DNA of 30,219 nt from a virus: positions 1 to 30,219 of IMG/VR virus record IMGVR_UViG_3300028920_000202, one strand, 5' to 3'. Numbering within the stretch: the first letter of the stretch is position 1; every line of letters begins with the position of its first letter. Below are positions 2,112-14,939 of this stretch, one piece after another. A program made the position numbers and the translations under genes. Below the pieces are notes generated by a model. That model was not told where the DNA came from and did no database searches. It saw only the letters and a list, made by a program, of their open reading frames with translations.

Positions 2112-2503
2112 TGAAAAGAATATTTCATTCGATAGACAAATGGGAAGATAAGAAAAATGGAATGTATAATCATCTTCCACTTGATAATGAATTAATAAAA
2201 AAATGTGTTTATCTGTTAACAAATGATATTTTATTTTTTCAAATTATGAAGCAAGTATGTAAAGAATGGAAAAATGCGGCAGAATCTAATCTTTCTCATA
2301 TAAACAATAATCGAAGAGCATGGCTTGGTAGGGCTTCATGCTGTTATTATATAAATGCTCCTGAAAATATAACACAACATGCATGGATATCAATGACAGA
2401 TAAGCAAAGAGAAAATGCGAATAAAACGGCAGATAAATTTTTAATTTATTGGTATGAAAAATACGAAAAACAATTAAATTTATTCGAGGTAACAAATGCC
2501 TAA
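2111..2503 (+). CDS. Conserved phage protein associated with ibrA/ibrB-like genes, 130 aa
   Basis: The start overlaps the previous stop by 1 nt and follows AAGGAGG (2100-2106). A central block NRRAWLGRASCCYYI followed by APENITQHAW and a helix ending in NKTADKFLIYW resembles a phage family commonly found just upstream of PAPS-reductase/ParB pairs. No function is known to me. It ends with 8 nt overlapping the ibrA-like gene, so the three genes are translationally linked. The cysteine pair (about 76-77) is notable next to a sulfur-chemistry-type partner, but that is inference. Confidence 0.6.
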   Translation: MKRIFHSIDKWEDKKNGMYNHLPLDNELIKKCVYLLTNDILFFQIMKQVCKEWKNAAESNLSHINNNRRAWLGRASCCYYINAPENITQHAWISMTDKQRENANKTADKFLIYWYEKYEKQLNLFEVTNA

Positions 2504-3740
2504 AAAACAGCTAAATATAAATGTTTATGACTCTGCAAAAAAAAGAATAGAATATGTATTTGATAATTTTAATAAAATATATGTGTCCTTTTCTGCAGGT
2601 AAAGATAGCACTACAATGTTGCATTTAGTAGCAAATGAAGCAATCAAAAGGAACAGGAAAATAGGATTATTATTTATCGATTTAGAATCTCAGTATAAAT
2701 TTACGATTGAAAATGCAAAGAATATGTTTGAGTTATATAAAGATATTATTATTCCATTCTGGGTATGTTTGCCTATTCATTTAAGAAATGCTGTATCAGT
2801 ATATGATCCTTTTTGGAAATGTTGGGATATAAAAGAAAAAATAAAATGGGTAAGAGAAGTACCTGATAATGCGATAAATAATATAAATTATTTTCCTTTC
2901 TTTTTTGATGGAATGGAATTTGAAGAATTTGTTCCATTGTTTGGAGAATGGTTTTCTGGTGGCAAAAAAACTGCCTGTTTTGTAGGAATAAGGGCAGATG
3001 AGTCATTAAATAGATTTAGGACAATAGCAAGTAAAACTAAAACTACATTTGAGGGAAACCAATGGACAACAAAAGTAACTGATAATGTTTATAATATATA
3101 TCCAATGTATGATTGGAGAACAAGAGATATATGGATTTATCACGCTAAGAATAGAGATAAGCCATATAATAAATTATATGATATGATGAATATGGCTGGA
3201 TTATCTATACATCAACAGAGAATATGCCAGCCTTATGGAGACGATCAACGAAGAGGTTTGTGGTTGTTTCATTTAATAGAACCAGAAACTTGGGCTAAAG
3301 TAGTTGCAAGGGTGAATGGAGTTAACGGAGGTGCTTTATATATAAAAGAGTCGGGCAATATGACCGGGTATAATAAAATAGAACTTCCGAACGGACATAC
3401 TTGGGAAAGTTTTGCAAAGCTATTATTAGGATCAATGCCACCAAAAACAAGAATACATTTTGAGAATAAGATAATATTATTTATTAAATGGTGGGAAGAA
3501 AAGGCATATCCAAATGGAATACCAGACGTAATAGATCAAATTCTCGAATCAAAAAGAAAAGCGCCTTCGTGGAGACGTATTTGTAAATCATTATTAAGAA
3601 ATGATTATTGGTGTAAGGGGTTGGGGTTTTCACAACACAAAAGTGAAGCATATGAAAAATATTTAAGACTGATGGAAAGACGAAAGAGAGAATGGAATTA
3701 TAATTTATTTGGAGAAGAAAATGAAACAGAGAGCGCATGA
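2496..3740 (+). CDS. IbrA-like protein, PAPS-reductase/ATP-pyrophosphatase family with DUF3440-type C-terminus
   Basis: The 414-residue protein has an N-terminal PP-loop SFSAGKDS (residues 31-38), the signature of adenylating N-type ATP pyrophosphatases such as CysH, CysD and DndC. A second family motif, GIRADESLNRFRT, lies near residue 170. A long C-terminal region (about 260-400) fits the DUF3440 arrangement of IbrA. Known members (IbrA of E. coli) are prophage proteins that act with the ParB-like IbrB and influence eib gene expression; the chemistry is not established. The downstream gene is an IbrB-like protein, which supports the call. The block is more AT-rich than the virion genes, consistent with separate acquisition. 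No Fe-S cysteine motif of assimilatory CysH is evident. Confidence 0.8.
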   Translation: MPKKQLNINVYDSAKKRIEYVFDNFNKIYVSFSAGKDSTTMLHLVANEAIKRNRKIGLLFIDLESQYKFTIENAKNMFELYKDIIIPFWVCLPIHLRNAVSVYDPFWKCWDIKEKIKWVREVPDNAINNINYFPFFFDGMEFEEFVPLFGEWFSGGKKTACFVGIRADESLNRFRTIASKTKTTFEGNQWTTKVTDNVYNIYPMYDWRTRDIWIYHAKNRDKPYNKLYDMMNMAGLSIHQQRICQPYGDDQRRGLWLFHLIEPETWAKVVARVNGVNGGALYIKESGNMTGYNKIELPNGHTWESFAKLLLGSMPPKTRIHFENKIILFIKWWEEKAYPNGIPDVIDQILESKRKAPSWRRICKSLLRNDYWCKGLGFSQHKSEAYEKYLRLMERRKREWNYNLFGEENETESA

Positions 3741-4440
3741 ATTGATTGATATGATTTATCAAGAAAATAATGAAAATAAAAAAATAGAATATTTAAATGA
3801 AATAAGAGAGATATTACACAACGAAAGTCCACTAAAAACAGAGCCTGTTGATTGTGTGTTGTGGGTTAAAAATGAAAAAGTGCAAGCAAATGATTATAAC
3901 CCCAATAATGTGGCTCCTCCGGAAATGGAATTATTAGAACTATCAGTGTTGAATGACGGATACACACAACCAATAGTAACATTCAATGAAGAAGGTATTT
4001 ATGAGGTCGTTGACGGATTTCATAGAAATAGAATTGGTCAAGAATCTGAAAAAATAAAAACAAGAATAAAAGGATATTTGCCTATAGTTAAAATAAATCA
4101 AGATCGTGAAAATAAAAGTGATAGAATAGCAGCAACAATACGACACAACAGGGCAAGAGGAAAACACCAGGTTTCAGCCATGAGTGAAATAGTTTTAGAA
4201 TTAAAAAGAAGAAACTGGAGTGATAAGAAAATAGGAAAAGAATTAGGAATGGATTCTGATGAGGTTTTGAGATTAACACAAATAAGCGGGCTTGCAGAAA
4301 TGTTTTCAGATCAAGAATTTTCAATGGCTTGGGAAGCAATAGATTTAAATGATGACGATTATAAATCAGAAATACAAGAATTAGAAATACAATATCAGGA
4401 AGAAGAAACAAAAGAACGTGAGGCATGGAGAAAAGGATGA
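3721..4440 (+). CDS. IbrB-like ParB/Srx-fold protein
   Basis: This 239-residue protein carries the ParB/sulfiredoxin-fold signature: GFHRNR (residues 99-104, the GxHR box), and RHNRARGKH (141-149), the second conserved box of phage ParB-like proteins. An HTH follows (about 165-190, KKIGKELGMDSDEVLRLTQI). The start is set at ATG 3721 because GGAG (3711-3714) lies 6 nt upstream; a TTG at 3709 is in frame but unsupported. It overlaps the ibrA-like gene by 20 nt. IbrA-IbrB pairs are known from E. coli prophages. ParB-fold proteins can be CTPases, nucleases or ATP-dependent kinases of the Srx type; which applies here is unknown. Confidence 0.78.
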   Translation: MKQRAHELIDMIYQENNENKKIEYLNEIREILHNESPLKTEPVDCVLWVKNEKVQANDYNPNNVAPPEMELLELSVLNDGYTQPIVTFNEEGIYEVVDGFHRNRIGQESEKIKTRIKGYLPIVKINQDRENKSDRIAATIRHNRARGKHQVSAMSEIVLELKRRNWSDKKIGKELGMDSDEVLRLTQISGLAEMFSDQEFSMAWEAIDLNDDDYKSEIQELEIQYQEEETKEREAWRKG

Positions 4441-4456
4441 CAGATAAGGGGATAGT

Positions 4457-5131
4457 ATGGGATTAAATAAATCAAAGGGTAATATGTATGATTTTGTAAC
4501 GCACACCTGGAACACAATAAAGGGGCAGTGTTATCATGATTGTTCTTATTGCTATATGAAACGCTGGGGGAAATTAAAACCTGTTAGATTTGATGAAAAT
4601 GAATTAGAAACAGATTTAGGAAAAGACAATTTTATATTTGTTGGCAGCAGTTGCGATATGTTCAACGAAATGATACCGGCTGACTGGATCAGAAATACGT
4701 TGATTAAATGTAATTCGTATAATAATAAATATCTTTTTCAGAGCAAAAATTGTGAAAGAATGATTAGATGGATAGAATGGGGATATTTAGATAAAAATAA
4801 AACCTTATTATGCGCAACACTGGAAACGAACAAGTGGTATAGAAATATAATGAATAAATCTGATATGCCATGGCAAAGGGCATTTGACTTTAAATATTAC
4901 AACGGGAAAAAATATATAACAATTGAACCGATCATGGAATTTGATTTAGATAAATTTGTAAAAATGATAAAGGAATGTGAACCGATACAGGTAAACATTG
5001 GAGCCGATAGTGGTAATAATAATTTACCAGAACCATCACCAGAAAAAATACTTGAATTAATTCAAGAACTGGATCAATTCACTAAAGTAAATATAAAACC
5101 TAATTTAAAAAGGATTATGATAAGGGGATAG
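4457..5131 (+). CDS. Radical-SAM-like phage protein, Gp37/Gp68 (DUF5131) type
   Basis: CYHDCSYC (residues 25-32) is a CxxxCxxC cluster that would ligate the 4Fe-4S centre of radical SAM enzymes. It follows the WNTIKGQC approach strand seen in the phage Gp37/Gp68 family. The later strands FIFVGSSCDMF, TLLCATLETN, KYITIEPIM and VNIGADSG fit the remaining barrel. At 224 residues it is compact. The ribosome binding site AAGGGGATAG-T-ATG is nearly identical to that of the following gene. The substrate is unknown. Position after the IbrA/IbrB pair suggests joint action, for example on nucleotide or DNA modification, but this is inference. QueE is an alternative of similar size; the surrounding motifs do not favour it. 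Confidence 0.7.
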   Translation: MGLNKSKGNMYDFVTHTWNTIKGQCYHDCSYCYMKRWGKLKPVRFDENELETDLGKDNFIFVGSSCDMFNEMIPADWIRNTLIKCNSYNNKYLFQSKNCERMIRWIEWGYLDKNKTLLCATLETNKWYRNIMNKSDMPWQRAFDFKYYNGKKYITIEPIMEFDLDKFVKMIKECEPIQVNIGADSGNNNLPEPSPEKILELIQELDQFTKVNIKPNLKRIMIRG

Positions 5132-5132
5132 C

Positions 5133-5348
5133 ATGAAACTATACAACATCAACCAGGAATGCATTATAAAGCGCAACAACAAAAACGGGCTTGTGGTCGG
5201 TGTATGCATCCGGGAGAATATGAATGTCCAGTATGAGATCAGCTATGAGTTAAACGATGATATTGTCAGCCGCTGGTTTTATGCGTTTGAGCTGACATTT
5301 ACCGAGCTTCCGGAGCTGGTTTTGTCCAACGGAGCCGACTGGGAATAG
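5133..5348 (+). CDS. Small hypothetical protein, 71 aa
   Basis: Starts 2 nt after the radical-SAM gene behind AAGGGGATAGC-ATG. The composition suggests a small beta-barrel: a basic N-terminal strand (ECIIKRNNKNGLVVGVCI), alternating hydrophobics and an acidic C-terminal end. It has no motif I can name. GC content is visibly higher than in the preceding Ibr block, so it may have a separate origin. It is the last gene before the promoter at 5418. Confidence 0.6.
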   Translation: MKLYNINQECIIKRNNKNGLVVGVCIRENMNVQYEISYELNDDIVSRWFYAFELTFTELPELVLSNGADWE

Positions 5349-11590: not shown

Positions 11591-12958
11591 ATGGTTTCAA
11601 GATCAATTACCACAGCCGAAAAAATAAAAGCGTTAATAACTGAACACAATCTCACAGAAGGAAATCAGTACAAACGATATCAAAAATATTATGACGGGCT
11701 TAATCCGACAATTTTAACAAAATCAATTCAGGCAGAACCGGACAACAGAAAAGCGGTTGCATATGCAAGGAAGGCAGTTCAGACTGTTGTGGGTTATATG
11801 TTTCAGGAAATTGTATACGATTATCCAGATAAAAATAATGAAATAATAAAAATGCTGTCGTCTGAAAAGGGACAGATTGATGAAACAGATTCGGCAACAA
11901 TAGCACTATCAAAGGGGCTTAGTTACAAACTTATCTGGAAAGCTGACAACAAAATAAAGTATGCTGTTGTCAAACCGGAAAACATGATTATCGAATGGGA
12001 TGATAAAATAGAGCCTGAAAAAATAGCGGCTTATTATTATACTGAAAAAGAAATAATAAATGCCAAAGGAACAAAAGACAAATATATTACCTGCCGGGTG
12101 TACACTGCCGACCAATATGAAACATGGGTTTCCGTTAATAATAATGCATATGTTTTAAATAAGGAAGAATCCGGGAAAAATGAATCCGGGGTTGTAAACG
12201 TTGCCGAACATAAGATAAACAGGGAAAAGCGAAATATCTTTTATGAAGTGATCGGGCTGATTGATTTTCAGGATGAGATCGTATCTTCAAACATGGCTAA
12301 TGAAATTCAAACCATAGCGAATTCAATTCTTGCTTTGTATGGCAAATATCTTGATAACGAAATGCCGGACCCACACACTGGAGAAACAGAACAAGATAAA
12401 TTCATGAAAGCAAAAATTAAAATAATTGACGGGTTAGATAAAGCTGCCGGTGATTTTATTGAATGGATCGTTAAAACAATCCAGTGGGAGGGAATATTTG
12501 GAATCTTTGACCGGATAAACGATTTGATTTATGATATCTTACAAATCCCAAATATGAGCAATGACAAATATTTTCAAGACCCGTCTGGGGAAGCATTAAA
12601 AATGCGCCTTACTCCGTTTGAAAACAAATGCTCCCTCATTGAATCCAATTATAAACAAGGGCTTGTTGAACAGATTAAAATAATGTCTGCGTTCCCAGGG
12701 GTCGATGAAGTTGATACTGAAAAATTGACAATCACATTTAACCGGAAAATACCTCAATCACAATCACAAAGAATTGATGAAGCAGTCAAAATTGCGATGA
12801 TGTTTGGTGAAGAAATAGCCCTTGAATATCTGGGTGATATAATTCCAGACCATAAAAAAGTATTAAAATTGATTCGGGAAAGAATGGAAAATGAAGCAAT
12901 AAACTTTTTAAACAATCAGACAAACGTATTACCGGAGCCGGAAATTGAAAGCGCCTAA
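11591..12958 (+). CDS. Portal protein, SPP1 gp6-like
   Basis: This 455-residue protein shows the N-terminal pattern of SPP1-type portals (QYKRYQKYYDGLNPTI, then AYARKAVQTVVGYMF near residues 57-71). A wing/stem region follows with the expected DNLIYDILQIPNMSNDKYF and ALKMRLTPFE segments near 300-340. It forms the dodecameric ring at the capsid vertex where terminase docks and the tail attaches. The length fits the family. ATG 11591 has AGGAG 6 nt upstream. The gene overlaps the gp7-like head gene by 14 nt. Confidence 0.88.
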   Translation: MVSRSITTAEKIKALITEHNLTEGNQYKRYQKYYDGLNPTILTKSIQAEPDNRKAVAYARKAVQTVVGYMFQEIVYDYPDKNNEIIKMLSSEKGQIDETDSATIALSKGLSYKLIWKADNKIKYAVVKPENMIIEWDDKIEPEKIAAYYYTEKEIINAKGTKDKYITCRVYTADQYETWVSVNNNAYVLNKEESGKNESGVVNVAEHKINREKRNIFYEVIGLIDFQDEIVSSNMANEIQTIANSILALYGKYLDNEMPDPHTGETEQDKFMKAKIKIIDGLDKAAGDFIEWIVKTIQWEGIFGIFDRINDLIYDILQIPNMSNDKYFQDPSGEALKMRLTPFENKCSLIESNYKQGLVEQIKIMSAFPGVDEVDTEKLTITFNRKIPQSQSQRIDEAVKIAMMFGEEIALEYLGDIIPDHKKVLKLIRERMENEAINFLNNQTNVLPEPEIESA

Positions 12959-14939
12959 ATCAACATTTAAGGGTGCAGAAACTTGGATATTTAATCAGGC
13001 ACAGAAAAATATTACTGTTACTAAAAAGGCACTTGTTGAAGTGTATAAACAGGTTTTAGAAAATATCCAAAACAAAATGAATACTTTAAAACCCGGAATG
13101 TCGTTCACAGAAAAACGGTTAACTGCAATGCAGGAGAAAATAAACGCAGAACTGAAAAGTCTTAACGCAACAAATCAACGAATTATTTCAAGCGGGTATA
13201 TTAGAAACTTTGAACTCGGGTATTATGGGAACGGCTACGAATATGAAAAATGGGTCAACTCGGTAATTACAAGTACTAAAACACATGTTGAACTTGGATA
13301 TTATCAGATTGACAGAACAGCCATTTTATCAAGCCTTAATCAGCAAATTGCAGGGGAAGCATTTAAAAACAGGATGCTTGATAATGTCTTAACACTCAGA
13401 AAAGAAATAAGGCGCTCTGTCGCTGTTGCTATGGTAGAAGGCCAATCGGCACAACAGACAGCAAGGAATATACAGTCAGGAATTCAGGGCATCGGCAAGG
13501 CAATGACAAAAAGCGTTAATCATTCTTTAATGATAGCCAGAACTGAAATGAACCGAGCGTATAGTCTCAGCCAGGAATTTGCAACGGCACAGGCTGAAGC
13601 TGCCGGGGTTGATGTTTCGCCGACATGGGATGCTACGCTTGACGGAAAGACAAGAGAATCGCATGCAAACGCAGACGGAAAGAAATTTATTCTTGATCAG
13701 AACGGCAACTGGATAGTAACTGTCGGAGGCACGATTTTTACAAGCCCAAGGGTGCCGTTATACGGGCCAGGGAAAGCAAAGGAAATAGTAAACTGCTTTA
13801 TTCCAGAAACAAAAATAAGCGCGGCAGATATAAAGAAATGCTATAAGAGAAAATATGACGGGCTATTAGTCACTATAGAAACGGCCACTGGAATTAAGTT
13901 GACCGGAACCCCTAATCACCCTGTACTCACCGAGAATGGATGGGTTGGCCTTGGCTTCTTGAAAAATGGAGATAATATAGTTAGCATGGATGTCGGAAAT
14001 TTCAATAATTCCACCATGCCCACTAAACCAAATAAATACTGTAAGCCAGCCAGCATTGGAAAGGTATTTAAGTTTTTTGATATTGTTTTTCCTAACCAAA
14101 GGGTGAGAGGGAGAAACGTGGACTTCCACGGCGATGGGAAACAAACCAATGTCAAGGTTGTATCGGTCGACAGCTTGTTGAGGAATACCAGAAAACCCAG
14201 ACTTTATAAGAAGATTAAGCAATTCTGTTTCTCCTTTTCCTATATATTGCTGTGTCTTTTCACGGGATTTTGCTCTAAGGCAAAGCTCATTATGAGAACG
14301 CTTTTTACCCCTAACAGCATCATGCGCAGCTTTAGTAAGGCGTTGTCTCTCAAACGGCGTGGCTTGATTCATGCGAGCAAACATAGCTTCACTGCGATTG
14401 CGACCTTTAAAACCTTTTTCAGAGAAGCGGTCATAGATATAAGCTCTGGAAACTCCGAACCGCTCAGACAGCTTTTTGACAGATACCCCTGCATTATGCA
14501 GCTTGATAAGATTGTCGATATCAATATGAGTAATTATTCTGGACATGTATATAACCTCCAAACTAAAGATAATACATATATAGCATATAATAACAGCAAT
14601 GGCAATAGGGGTATACTGGTACATAATTGTCGATGCAGAAGACAGAATAATCCATTTGGTGTTCAACCGGTAACAAGAACAGCAAGAACAGCAGGTGGCA
14701 CTTGGCAAGAAGTAAACGGAAATCTTAATTATAATCAATGGGCCAAAACGTTGGAAGGCCGAAAAGAAATAGAGCGCACTATCGCAGACAGGTCATTACG
14801 GGCAAGGGAATTGCGCATCATGAGAAATGCAAGAGACAGAAAACTCACTACAGCAGAAAGGCGAACATTAGCGGATATCAGGAAGCAAATTAAAGGCCGT
14901 GTGATTGGGAATATAGGGACACGCACCAACATAGCATAA
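12945..14939 (+). CDS. SPP1 gp7/Mu F-like head morphogenesis protein, interrupted by an intein
   Basis: The frame gives 664 residues; removal of the intein (residues 284-561) leaves 386, a normal gp7/Mu F length. The host protein has a helical N-terminal half, then the family motif ARTEMNRAYSLSQEF (about 202-216), WDATLDGKTRESHANADGK (about 231-249), and the final NCRC motif rebuilt by splicing (IVN|CRCRR). The protein works with the portal in head assembly. The start is TTG 12945 with GGAG (12934-12937) 7 nt upstream; no ATG is near, so the rare start is well supported. After the intein, 103 residues of basic C-terminus follow, rich in Arg. Confidence 0.88.
   Translation: MKAPKSTFKGAETWIFNQAQKNITVTKKALVEVYKQVLENIQNKMNTLKPGMSFTEKRLTAMQEKINAELKSLNATNQRIISSGYIRNFELGYYGNGYEYEKWVNSVITSTKTHVELGYYQIDRTAILSSLNQQIAGEAFKNRMLDNVLTLRKEIRRSVAVAMVEGQSAQQTARNIQSGIQGIGKAMTKSVNHSLMIARTEMNRAYSLSQEFATAQAEAAGVDVSPTWDATLDGKTRESHANADGKKFILDQNGNWIVTVGGTIFTSPRVPLYGPGKAKEIVNCFIPETKISAADIKKCYKRKYDGLLVTIETATGIKLTGTPNHPVLTENGWVGLGFLKNGDNIVSMDVGNFNNSTMPTKPNKYCKPASIGKVFKFFDIVFPNQRVRGRNVDFHGDGKQTNVKVVSVDSLLRNTRKPRLYKKIKQFCFSFSYILLCLFTGFCSKAKLIMRTLFTPNSIMRSFSKALSLKRRGLIHASKHSFTAIATFKTFFREAVIDISSGNSEPLRQLFDRYPCIMQLDKIVDINMSNYSGHVYNLQTKDNTYIAYNNSNGNRGILVHNCRCRRQNNPFGVQPVTRTARTAGGTWQEVNGNLNYNQWAKTLEGRKEIERTIADRSLRARELRIMRNARDRKLTTAERRTLADIRKQIKGRVIGNIGTRTNIA
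13866..14546 (-). CDS. Vsr/EDxHD-like homing endonuclease, antisense within the intein
   Basis: This 226-residue protein lies wholly inside the intein on the opposite strand. It begins at ATG 14546-14544 with GGAGG (14559-14555) 8 nt upstream; the frame can be extended to 14738, but that part has no start signal. An N-terminal HTH (about residues 12-40, IKLHNAGVSVKKLSERFGVS) is followed by a basic region (RNRSEAMFARM; TPFERQRLTKAAHDAVRG). The Vsr-like nuclease core comes last: GETELLNLLI (Glu106/Glu108), IPQQAVDRYNLDIG (Asp132), FPIAVEVHV (Glu141, His143), a further His148, then NAGWLTVFIW. It ends with EYRVIRGSGQL. The Vsr-like/EDxHD family is known from phage homing endonucleases including intein-linked ones. 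It would cut intein-less alleles of the head gene. Confidence 0.85.
   Translation of the reverse strand: MSRIITHIDIDNLIKLHNAGVSVKKLSERFGVSRAYIYDRFSEKGFKGRNRSEAMFARMNQATPFERQRLTKAAHDAVRGKKRSHNELCLRAKSREKTQQYIGKGETELLNLLIKSGFSGIPQQAVDRYNLDIGLFPIAVEVHVSPSHPLVRKNNIKKLKYLSNAGWLTVFIWFSGHGGIIEISDIHANYIISIFQEAKANPSILGEYRVIRGSGQLNSSGRFYSD
14577..14605 (-). promoter_or_regulatory. Antisense promoter for the homing endonuclease, inside intein coding sequence
   Basis: On the minus strand, TTGCCA (14605-14600) is followed by a 17-nt spacer and TATATA (14582-14577), with an extended TGC before the -10. The start point would be near 14570, about 24 nt before the endonuclease ATG and 11 nt before its GGAGG. 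Confidence 0.5.

Follow-up and report, generated by a model that had tools for sequence, protein, structure and literature searches.

The virus record IMGVR_UViG_3300028920_000202 of IMG/VR, analysed here over its full 30,219 bases (the window), carries an insert of 834 bp in a MuF/SPP1 gp7-like minor head gene, and this insert is very probably a mobile intein whose homing endonuclease is a separate gene, dual-coded on the opposite strand of the same DNA. Inteins are usually described as one polypeptide with splicing and endonuclease parts, and in homing inteins the LAGLIDADG or HNH endonuclease is a same-frame domain of that polypeptide. The arrangement found here, and the selection acting on both of its reading frames, are well supported by comparison of related sequences. 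Homing by the antisense nuclease appears to be their best explanation; its expression, cleavage and target, as well as splicing of the intein, are what we infer from the same comparisons.

The intein and the gene opposite it

The host open reading frame (ORF; 12945-14939, plus strand) encodes 664 amino acids from a TTG start and matches Pfam Phage_Mu_F with an E value of 1.2e-10, as well as head families in PHROGs. Within it, in frame and free of stops, lies an intein of 278 amino acids (13794-14627, plus strand), placed before the CRC motif of the MuF protein. As the original prediction had proposed, all splicing residues of a class 1 intein are present: Cys1 (13794-13796), block B TPNHP (13908-13922) with TPNH as its TxxH, and the C-terminal block LVHN (14616-14627), which supplies the VHN and is followed by Cys+1 at 14628-14630. 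Block F reads GHVYNL (14541-14558). Cys1 is invariant in 39 aligned inteins, which had been selected to begin with Cys. The Hint-type assignment was borne out by Pfam Intein_splicing (40.0 bits, over a cut-off of 35.8), and a split intein is ruled out in the window, because the sense frame is continuous across the insert and not broken between two halves. In the AlphaFold2 model of the intein, both ends have predicted local distance difference test (pLDDT) values mostly above 90, while values fall below 50 over residues 71-79, 128-138 and 171-231 and are mostly intermediate over residues 80-130; inteins were the leading matches of this model in the Protein Data Bank (PDB; best E 3.8e-4). Given these confident ends and the low-confidence middle, most of the sense insert looks, in the model, tolerated rather than enzymatic.

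On the minus strand, 681 of the 834 bases are occupied by a gene for a protein of 226 residues, running from 14546 to 13866, complete with start signals just as first described. Its ATG (14544-14546) is the CAT of the block F His read on the other strand, and a Shine-Dalgarno (SD) sequence GGAGG (14559-14555) stands 8 nt upstream. Farther upstream are weak candidates for a -10 box, TATATA (14577-14582, minus strand), 30 nt before the ATG and preceded by TGC as in the extended -10 type, and, across a spacer of 17, for a -35 box, TTGCCA (14600-14605, minus strand). At its other end the gene runs through block B, where the reverse complement of 13908-13925 encodes the nuclease C-terminal YRVIRG.

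Fold and family of the antisense protein

The minus-strand protein is predicted to fold as a helix-turn-helix (HTH) followed by a Vsr/I-Bth0305I-like nuclease domain, in agreement with the earlier suggestion of a Vsr/EDxHD-like enzyme. Its AlphaFold2 model has a mean pLDDT of 94.7, and VIA-align places a Vsr-like fold first, with Vsr (1cw0) at Z 10.6 over 110 residues, I-Bth0305I at Z 9.5 over 92 residues and 3hrl at Z 9.3; the rows that follow, of other kinds by their titles, stand at Z 8.2 and 7.1. Foldseek likewise returned I-Bth0305I first (E 0.010, probability 1.00). The resolvase-like HTH, at about residues 9-43 (14418-14522, minus strand), matches Pfam HTH_7 just below its cut-off (E 7e-5), and nuclease residues 3-47 superpose on residues 141-185 of Tn3 resolvase with Z 6.2. 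Profile similarity to nuclease families reached significance for some relatives of the protein and stayed below the cut-off for the protein itself: among the 20 members of a more diverse alignment, eight matched REase_MTES_1575 (best E 5.8e-9), three DUF559 and one Vsr in Pfam at E 0.01, whereas the window nuclease, which is not among the matching members, reached only 12.7 bits against REase_MTES_1575 (cut-off 38.2), had no match in NCBIfam and gave nothing useful in phmmer against PDB sequences.

Several residues of the nuclease are strongly conserved. Glu106 (14229-14231, minus strand) is present in 57 of 57 rows of a second alignment of nucleases and in at least 90%, though not all, of the 20 diverse rows; Asp132 of the motif YNLD (14151-14162) and both Ala139 and Glu141 of the motif AVEV (14121-14132) are present in every row of the two alignments. 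Invariant overall are E106, Q123, D132, A139 and E141 among the 57, and Y129, D132, A139 and E141 among the 20; in the nuclease of a Helicobacter prophage Ala139 is replaced by Phe. Candidates for the E, D, H, D catalytic set of EDxHD enzymes are the conserved E106, D132 and E141 and the partly conserved H148; the final D has no residue assigned to it.

Selection on both reading frames

For the comparison we assembled 101 loci from phages, plasmids and viral contigs, comprising 21 named loci and the best 80 of 281 viral-contig relatives, with near-identical ones included. The antisense match is stop-free in all 101, so that a homologue is indeed kept open across related inteins, and the aligned sense frame is open in 99; the two loci with a broken sense frame are Acinetobacter phages with identical nucleases, which have no intein and carry the nuclease as a free-standing gene. 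The two other sense-strand frames opposite the nuclease average 12.4 and 6.5 stops, with minima of 3 and 1.

Sense and antisense codons coincide exactly, with sense position 1 facing antisense position 3, and a sense stop therefore corresponds to an antisense TTA, CTA or TCA. None of these occurs among the 39 Leu and Ser codons (18 Leu, 21 Ser) of the window antisense gene, where 16.4 would be expected from the other genes of the window (37% GC; P 4e-10), and none was observed across 83 loci, where 371 would be expected, although kinship among the loci overstates the significance of the codon tests. For these tests, and for those on start signals and close pairs below, 16 near-identical loci chosen by hand were set aside, as were loci that had too few codons or in which no block F was recognised; both block F and the intein starts had been located by pattern, with some misses.

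The pattern of substitutions shows the same constraint from another side. Within the overlap, substitutions are commoner at sense position 1, the antisense wobble position, than at position 3 in 14 of 15 close pairs, the exception being L045/L047 with 78 against 79, whereas the adjacent N-extein shows the usual excess at position 3 in 12 of 13 pairs, the exception there comparing only seven codons. For L006/L009, for instance, the counts at positions 1, 2 and 3 are 79, 20 and 48 in the overlap and 58, 33 and 117 in the N-extein. The codons of these pairs were aligned by antisense translation, a procedure that may tilt gapped pairs towards the antisense frame, yet pairs with equal codon number (among L002, L003 and L038, and among L006, L008 and L009) have the same excess at position 1. 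Likewise, antisense identity (42-46%) exceeds sense identity (29-36%) between the window and each of five relatives, which had themselves been found by antisense similarity. In N-exteins, antisense stops in the aligned register occur at 0.0188 per codon, amounting to about 450 over the summed overlap length, a rough yardstick and not a clean test, as the overlap is defined by the antisense ORF. That both frames are under selection is well supported by these comparisons, and a chance antisense ORF is opposed by the substitution pattern, by the codon avoidance and by the folded nuclease model alike.

Where the two codes meet

Across the 57 aligned nucleases, the wobble position of fourfold-degenerate antisense codons is free over most of the part viewed, which covers all nuclease residues other than 96-124. 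Three parts are exceptions in which the wobble is fixed: residue 163 (sense Glu), ten of the residues from 193 to 222, which face the block B region of the intein, and residues 137-140, beside the invariant Glu141. The last of these stretches faces the sense motif DFHGDG (14121-14138, plus strand), which lies directly opposite the nuclease core AVEV. The sense residue is Gly at Ala139 in 57 of 57 loci, Asp at residue 138 in 56 and His at residue 140 in 52; the Ala139 codon that gives sense Gly is used in all 57, and the intein-less Acinetobacter gene, a single lineage, has GCG. Because the wobble is fixed opposite DFHGDG and GCG appears where the intein is gone, the motif probably matters to the intein, although the Helicobacter copy has lost it. 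The original description of the sense insert as codons without a motif does not hold, and motif-free filler is ruled out by the conservation of DFHGDG.

The second meeting point is block F, whose H-V-Y-N-L-Q, read backwards, gives TGGAGG...ATG, that is, the SD and start of the nuclease. Judged by extein codon use, 29.6 of 64 non-redundant loci would spell the block F His as CAT, and 57 do; for the Leu, CTC is used in 63 of 75, against 18.8 expected, and 47 of 81 loci, against 6.2 expected, combine an SD with an ATG placed at the His. Where the His is replaced, in some loci a CAT appears two codons away (FHG[FPY]VY). Promoter-like sequence follows upstream: the best sigma-70-like score on the antisense strand is 8.89, compared with 7.22 in extein antisense (62 loci with at least 120 bases and a control; p 9e-11), and 8.85, compared with 7.93 in codon-shuffled copies (53 loci with 147 bases past block F; p 1e-4). 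In four loci (L027, L028, L059 and L061) the sequence is TTGACA-17-TATAAT, and its end lies 26-35 nt upstream of the ATG.

Distribution

In a tblastn search with the antisense protein, 130 of 50,697 phage records matched at E 0.01, and in 126 of them one place covers at least 80% of the query; by organism name the matching phages include those of Salmonella, Gordonia, Pseudomonas, Klebsiella, Escherichia, Vibrio, Acinetobacter and Haemophilus. The plasmid collection gave two records, and four more phage loci, one of them a Helicobacter prophage, are also nested. In bacterial genomes, a scan limited by its short peptide patterns yielded seven loci from 125 stretches (Acidobacteria, Actinomycetota, Bacillota and Chloroflexota), with the sense frame open in all seven and the antisense frame in six. 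Single-protein scans of the viral contigs with either the nuclease or the intein found no relatives, and multi-sequence queries were used instead. A survey that started from the sense intein kept the best 80 of 527 relatives, and the nuclease profile was present in all 80 (163-346 bits); several of these contigs are also in the first set, and as they were confirmed with a query spanning the overlap, relatives free of the nuclease may be under-represented among them.

The gene has been largely overlooked. Of 25 annotated loci that were fetched, 23 have only the opposite-strand gene annotated over the nuclease match, and the remaining two are the Acinetobacter phages; the gene tables of the plasmid loci are incomplete. 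In a Klebsiella phage (L010) and an Edwardsiella phage (L196), annotated genes on the nuclease strand come immediately before the antisense nuclease, and it could be read together with them as the final gene of the group.

Signs of mobility

The elements of the Escherichia phage Snoke and the Salmonella phage UPWr_S1 (Jerseyvirus) are 95.7% identical, in flanks that are 70-82% identical. Snoke carries its element at HPN^CRS and has an empty TI^CRARDG site, fEg-Eco06 has the reverse, and around the first site 60 bases of flank are 87-90% alike between the two. The Snoke intein has been reported before, with a near-identical one in LSPA1 and none in K1ind2 (PMC6776784), and the word endonuclease does not occur in the accessible part of that paper. 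A single MuF gene (L075, sense ORF 2369-5227) holds two inteins at different sites, with antisense nuclease matches to both; at L099:1529-4426 the element lies in a gene to which neither Pfam nor PHROGs gives a MuF match and whose N-extein looks, by eye only, like a tail or baseplate protein; and L023:2216-5623, a portal-MuF fusion, has a LAGLIDADG intein in its portal part and an antisense-nuclease intein in its MuF part. Judged by eye, most of the loci viewed share one insertion site. In six of 12 usable close pairs the overlap is more alike than the N-extein, three of these being the pairs within the Snoke/UPWr_S1/AH01 trio.

A search for close intein-less relatives of the window MuF gave only distant ones (26-39%, six loci). 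Five of these were examined, L201 being left out and L202 and L203 being the same protein; in all five the CRS site is intact and the available stretch contains no nuclease. At the level of sequence, then, empty sites, double insertions and the pairs in which the element is more alike than its flanks indicate mobility. In the Rhodococcus phage REQ3 (L020) and a Salinibacterium metagenome-assembled genome (L113), Ala and not Cys follows HPN; the intein there may be inactive or belong to a different splicing class.

Loss of one partner

In the Acinetobacter phages IME285 (L015) and BUCT629 (L022) the nuclease is free-standing and convergent with a short head gene, and a third Acinetobacter record has an identical nuclease protein. 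The MuF protein of IME285 is intein-less and ends in ...PMCKCRAK.... In this phage the nuclease frame is open, the frame opposite has nine stops, and nine Leu and Ser codons of the nuclease are of the TTA/CTA/TCA type that is forbidden elsewhere. Translated in the former sense frame, the start of the Acinetobacter nuclease gives NHVHSLM, a remnant of block F, and the nuclease falls inside a clade of nested copies with support of 100/99 (midpoint root). Because of this supported position and this relic, the free-standing copy looks derived from the nested state, and to take it as ancestral is unlikely to be right. The bacterial locus L107 is the mirror case, with the sense frame intact and the antisense frame broken by one stop.

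Competing explanations

The explanation that we prefer, a mobile intein with a dual-coded antisense homing endonuclease, would work as follows. The plus strand of the insert would encode an intein that splices in cis, excising itself from the MuF head protein, and the minus strand, with start signals of its own, a separate site-specific endonuclease with an HTH and a Vsr/EDxHD-like domain. This nuclease would cleave MuF genes that lack the intein, at the CRC site or close to it; repair would then copy the whole insert into the cut gene, and splicing would hide the cost of the insertion.

A number of observations speak against this explanation. His148 of the Vsr-like motif is present in only 38 of the 57 nucleases, and Foldseek against the PDB gave no match to the nuclease model at an E value of 0.001 or below. 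Six of 81 loci have no start codon at block F, and eight of the 75 with such a start have no SD-like string; the window itself offers only TTGCCA-17-TATATA with its preceding TGC, a weak promoter candidate, and a stricter scan of the window found no minus-strand site until 15798, some 1.2 kb upstream of the nuclease. The kinship of the loci, mentioned above, tempers the codon counts. In the GC-rich locus L014 the antisense frame is open for 1066 codons, and antisense openness means little in GC-rich genomes. The motif DFHGDG is conserved beyond the demands of the antisense protein, and the sense insert is therefore not pure filler. Finally, in the other six of the 12 close pairs, including three among Vivi2, Angelicage and L038, the overlap is less alike than the N-extein. 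Such a mixed pattern would be expected if the element is also inherited vertically; still, as half of the pairs lack the pattern of transfer, our confidence in homing is lowered slightly.

Some of these observations could be turned into an account in which the antisense ORF is a by-product of sense codon bias in the aligned register and the sense insert is the real coding sequence. The exact codon alignment of the register, the long open frame of L014 and the conservation of DFHGDG all suit it. It is nevertheless scarcely credible: it does not predict the higher antisense identity in five of five relatives (even granted how they were found), the shift of the substitution excess to the antisense wobble, or a product that models with a nuclease fold at high confidence while most of the sense insert does not. 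By the rough N-extein yardstick it would leave some hundreds of antisense stops in the overlap, and the Acinetobacter phages keep the antisense ORF despite nine stops in the opposite frame.

Two further accounts accept the nuclease as real, and both seem to us improbable, if less remote than the by-product account. The enzyme might be domesticated and merely housed in the intein, serving interference against rival phages at MuF, or regulation through its HTH, which could bind its own promoter. Vertical inheritance of this kind would suit the half of the close pairs in which the element is no more alike than the N-extein, and the Acinetobacter phages do keep a free-standing copy beside an intein-less MuF. 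Yet most loci viewed share one insertion site, the nuclease is absent together with the intein in all five intein-less relatives, and neither the near-identical elements in the diverged flanks of Snoke and UPWr_S1 nor the copies at other sites would follow from such a role. Alternatively, the partners might have separate origins and collaborate in homing, the nuclease being a homing gene in its own right, for which the intein is merely a safe place to insert. Free-standing homing genes that serve introns are a precedent; the nuclease has its own start signals, and a free-standing copy exists at the two Acinetobacter loci, with the identical protein in the third record. That copy, however, sits within the nested clade, retains its NHVHSLM relic and looks derived, and the start signals are spelled by the intein's own motif, so that nuclease and intein now form a single unit. 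A mobile intein with its own antisense homing endonuclease accommodates these observations with the least strain.

The original suggestion of a distinct class of mobile element fits the survey, and we consider it likely that the element represents an ancient and widespread class in tailed phages, a dual-coded intein and homing endonuclease in which promoter, ribosome-binding site and start codon of the nuclease are written into the C-terminal splicing region, and the nuclease core doubles as the intein motif DFHGDG. With codons in common, neither partner should then be easily lost, and decay within the homing cycle should be slower; one or the other has all the same been lost in L107 and the Acinetobacter phages. 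With mobility and splicing as genes on opposite strands, the nuclease could be produced at a time of its own, when the late head gene is not expressed. The element is also a large natural case of dual coding in which both constraints can be measured codon by codon, which makes it testable whether overlap protects a homing gene from loss, and it reveals a gene that annotation has missed in 23 of the 25 annotated loci fetched.

Relation to known elements

Like homing inteins of the LAGLIDADG and HNH kinds, the element is a mobile insert, placed at a conserved site, that unites a splicing domain with a homing endonuclease; unlike them, it has the nuclease as a separate gene on the opposite strand. 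The LAGLIDADG intein of L023 provides a direct contrast, with five antisense stops and no match to the nuclease profile. Dassa and colleagues reportedly described, in 2009, free-standing Vsr-like endonucleases between split inteins. There, too, a Vsr/EDxHD nuclease is associated with inteins, whereas here the intein is uninterrupted and the nuclease nested on its opposite strand.

I-Bth0305I is an EDxHD homing enzyme with a homing role in phage (PMC3943268); it and Vsr share the catalytic-domain fold of the antisense protein, but at 14-16% identity, and in the present family a conserved E-D-E core is encoded antisense within an intein. Antisense homing endonuclease genes are known in nuclear group I introns (PMC9548176), where a homing gene likewise lies opposite a self-splicing element and its host gene. 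In those introns splicing is of RNA, in rDNA, and the opposite strand need not be translatable; here it must be, and is. The ShiLan insertion in a phage gene hides an out-of-frame HNH endonuclease (PMC11855218) and, as far as the available portion of that source goes, resembles the present case in being a phage insert that is open in the host frame and encodes an endonuclease in another; the present element differs in using the opposite strand, a real intein and a conserved SD. A literature search found, among the matches listed, no account of an antisense endonuclease gene in an intein, a Gordonia-phage preprint that by its title possibly overlaps (10.1101/2025.01.02.630785) lying outside that search. 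The accessible text of PMC8425127 names an intein in a head gene and mentions no nuclease in it, and the terms looked for do not occur in that of PMC5050341.

Adjoining genes

Judged from gene order and translations only, the genes adjoining the MuF gene in the window look like those for a portal protein, a scaffold and a major capsid protein.

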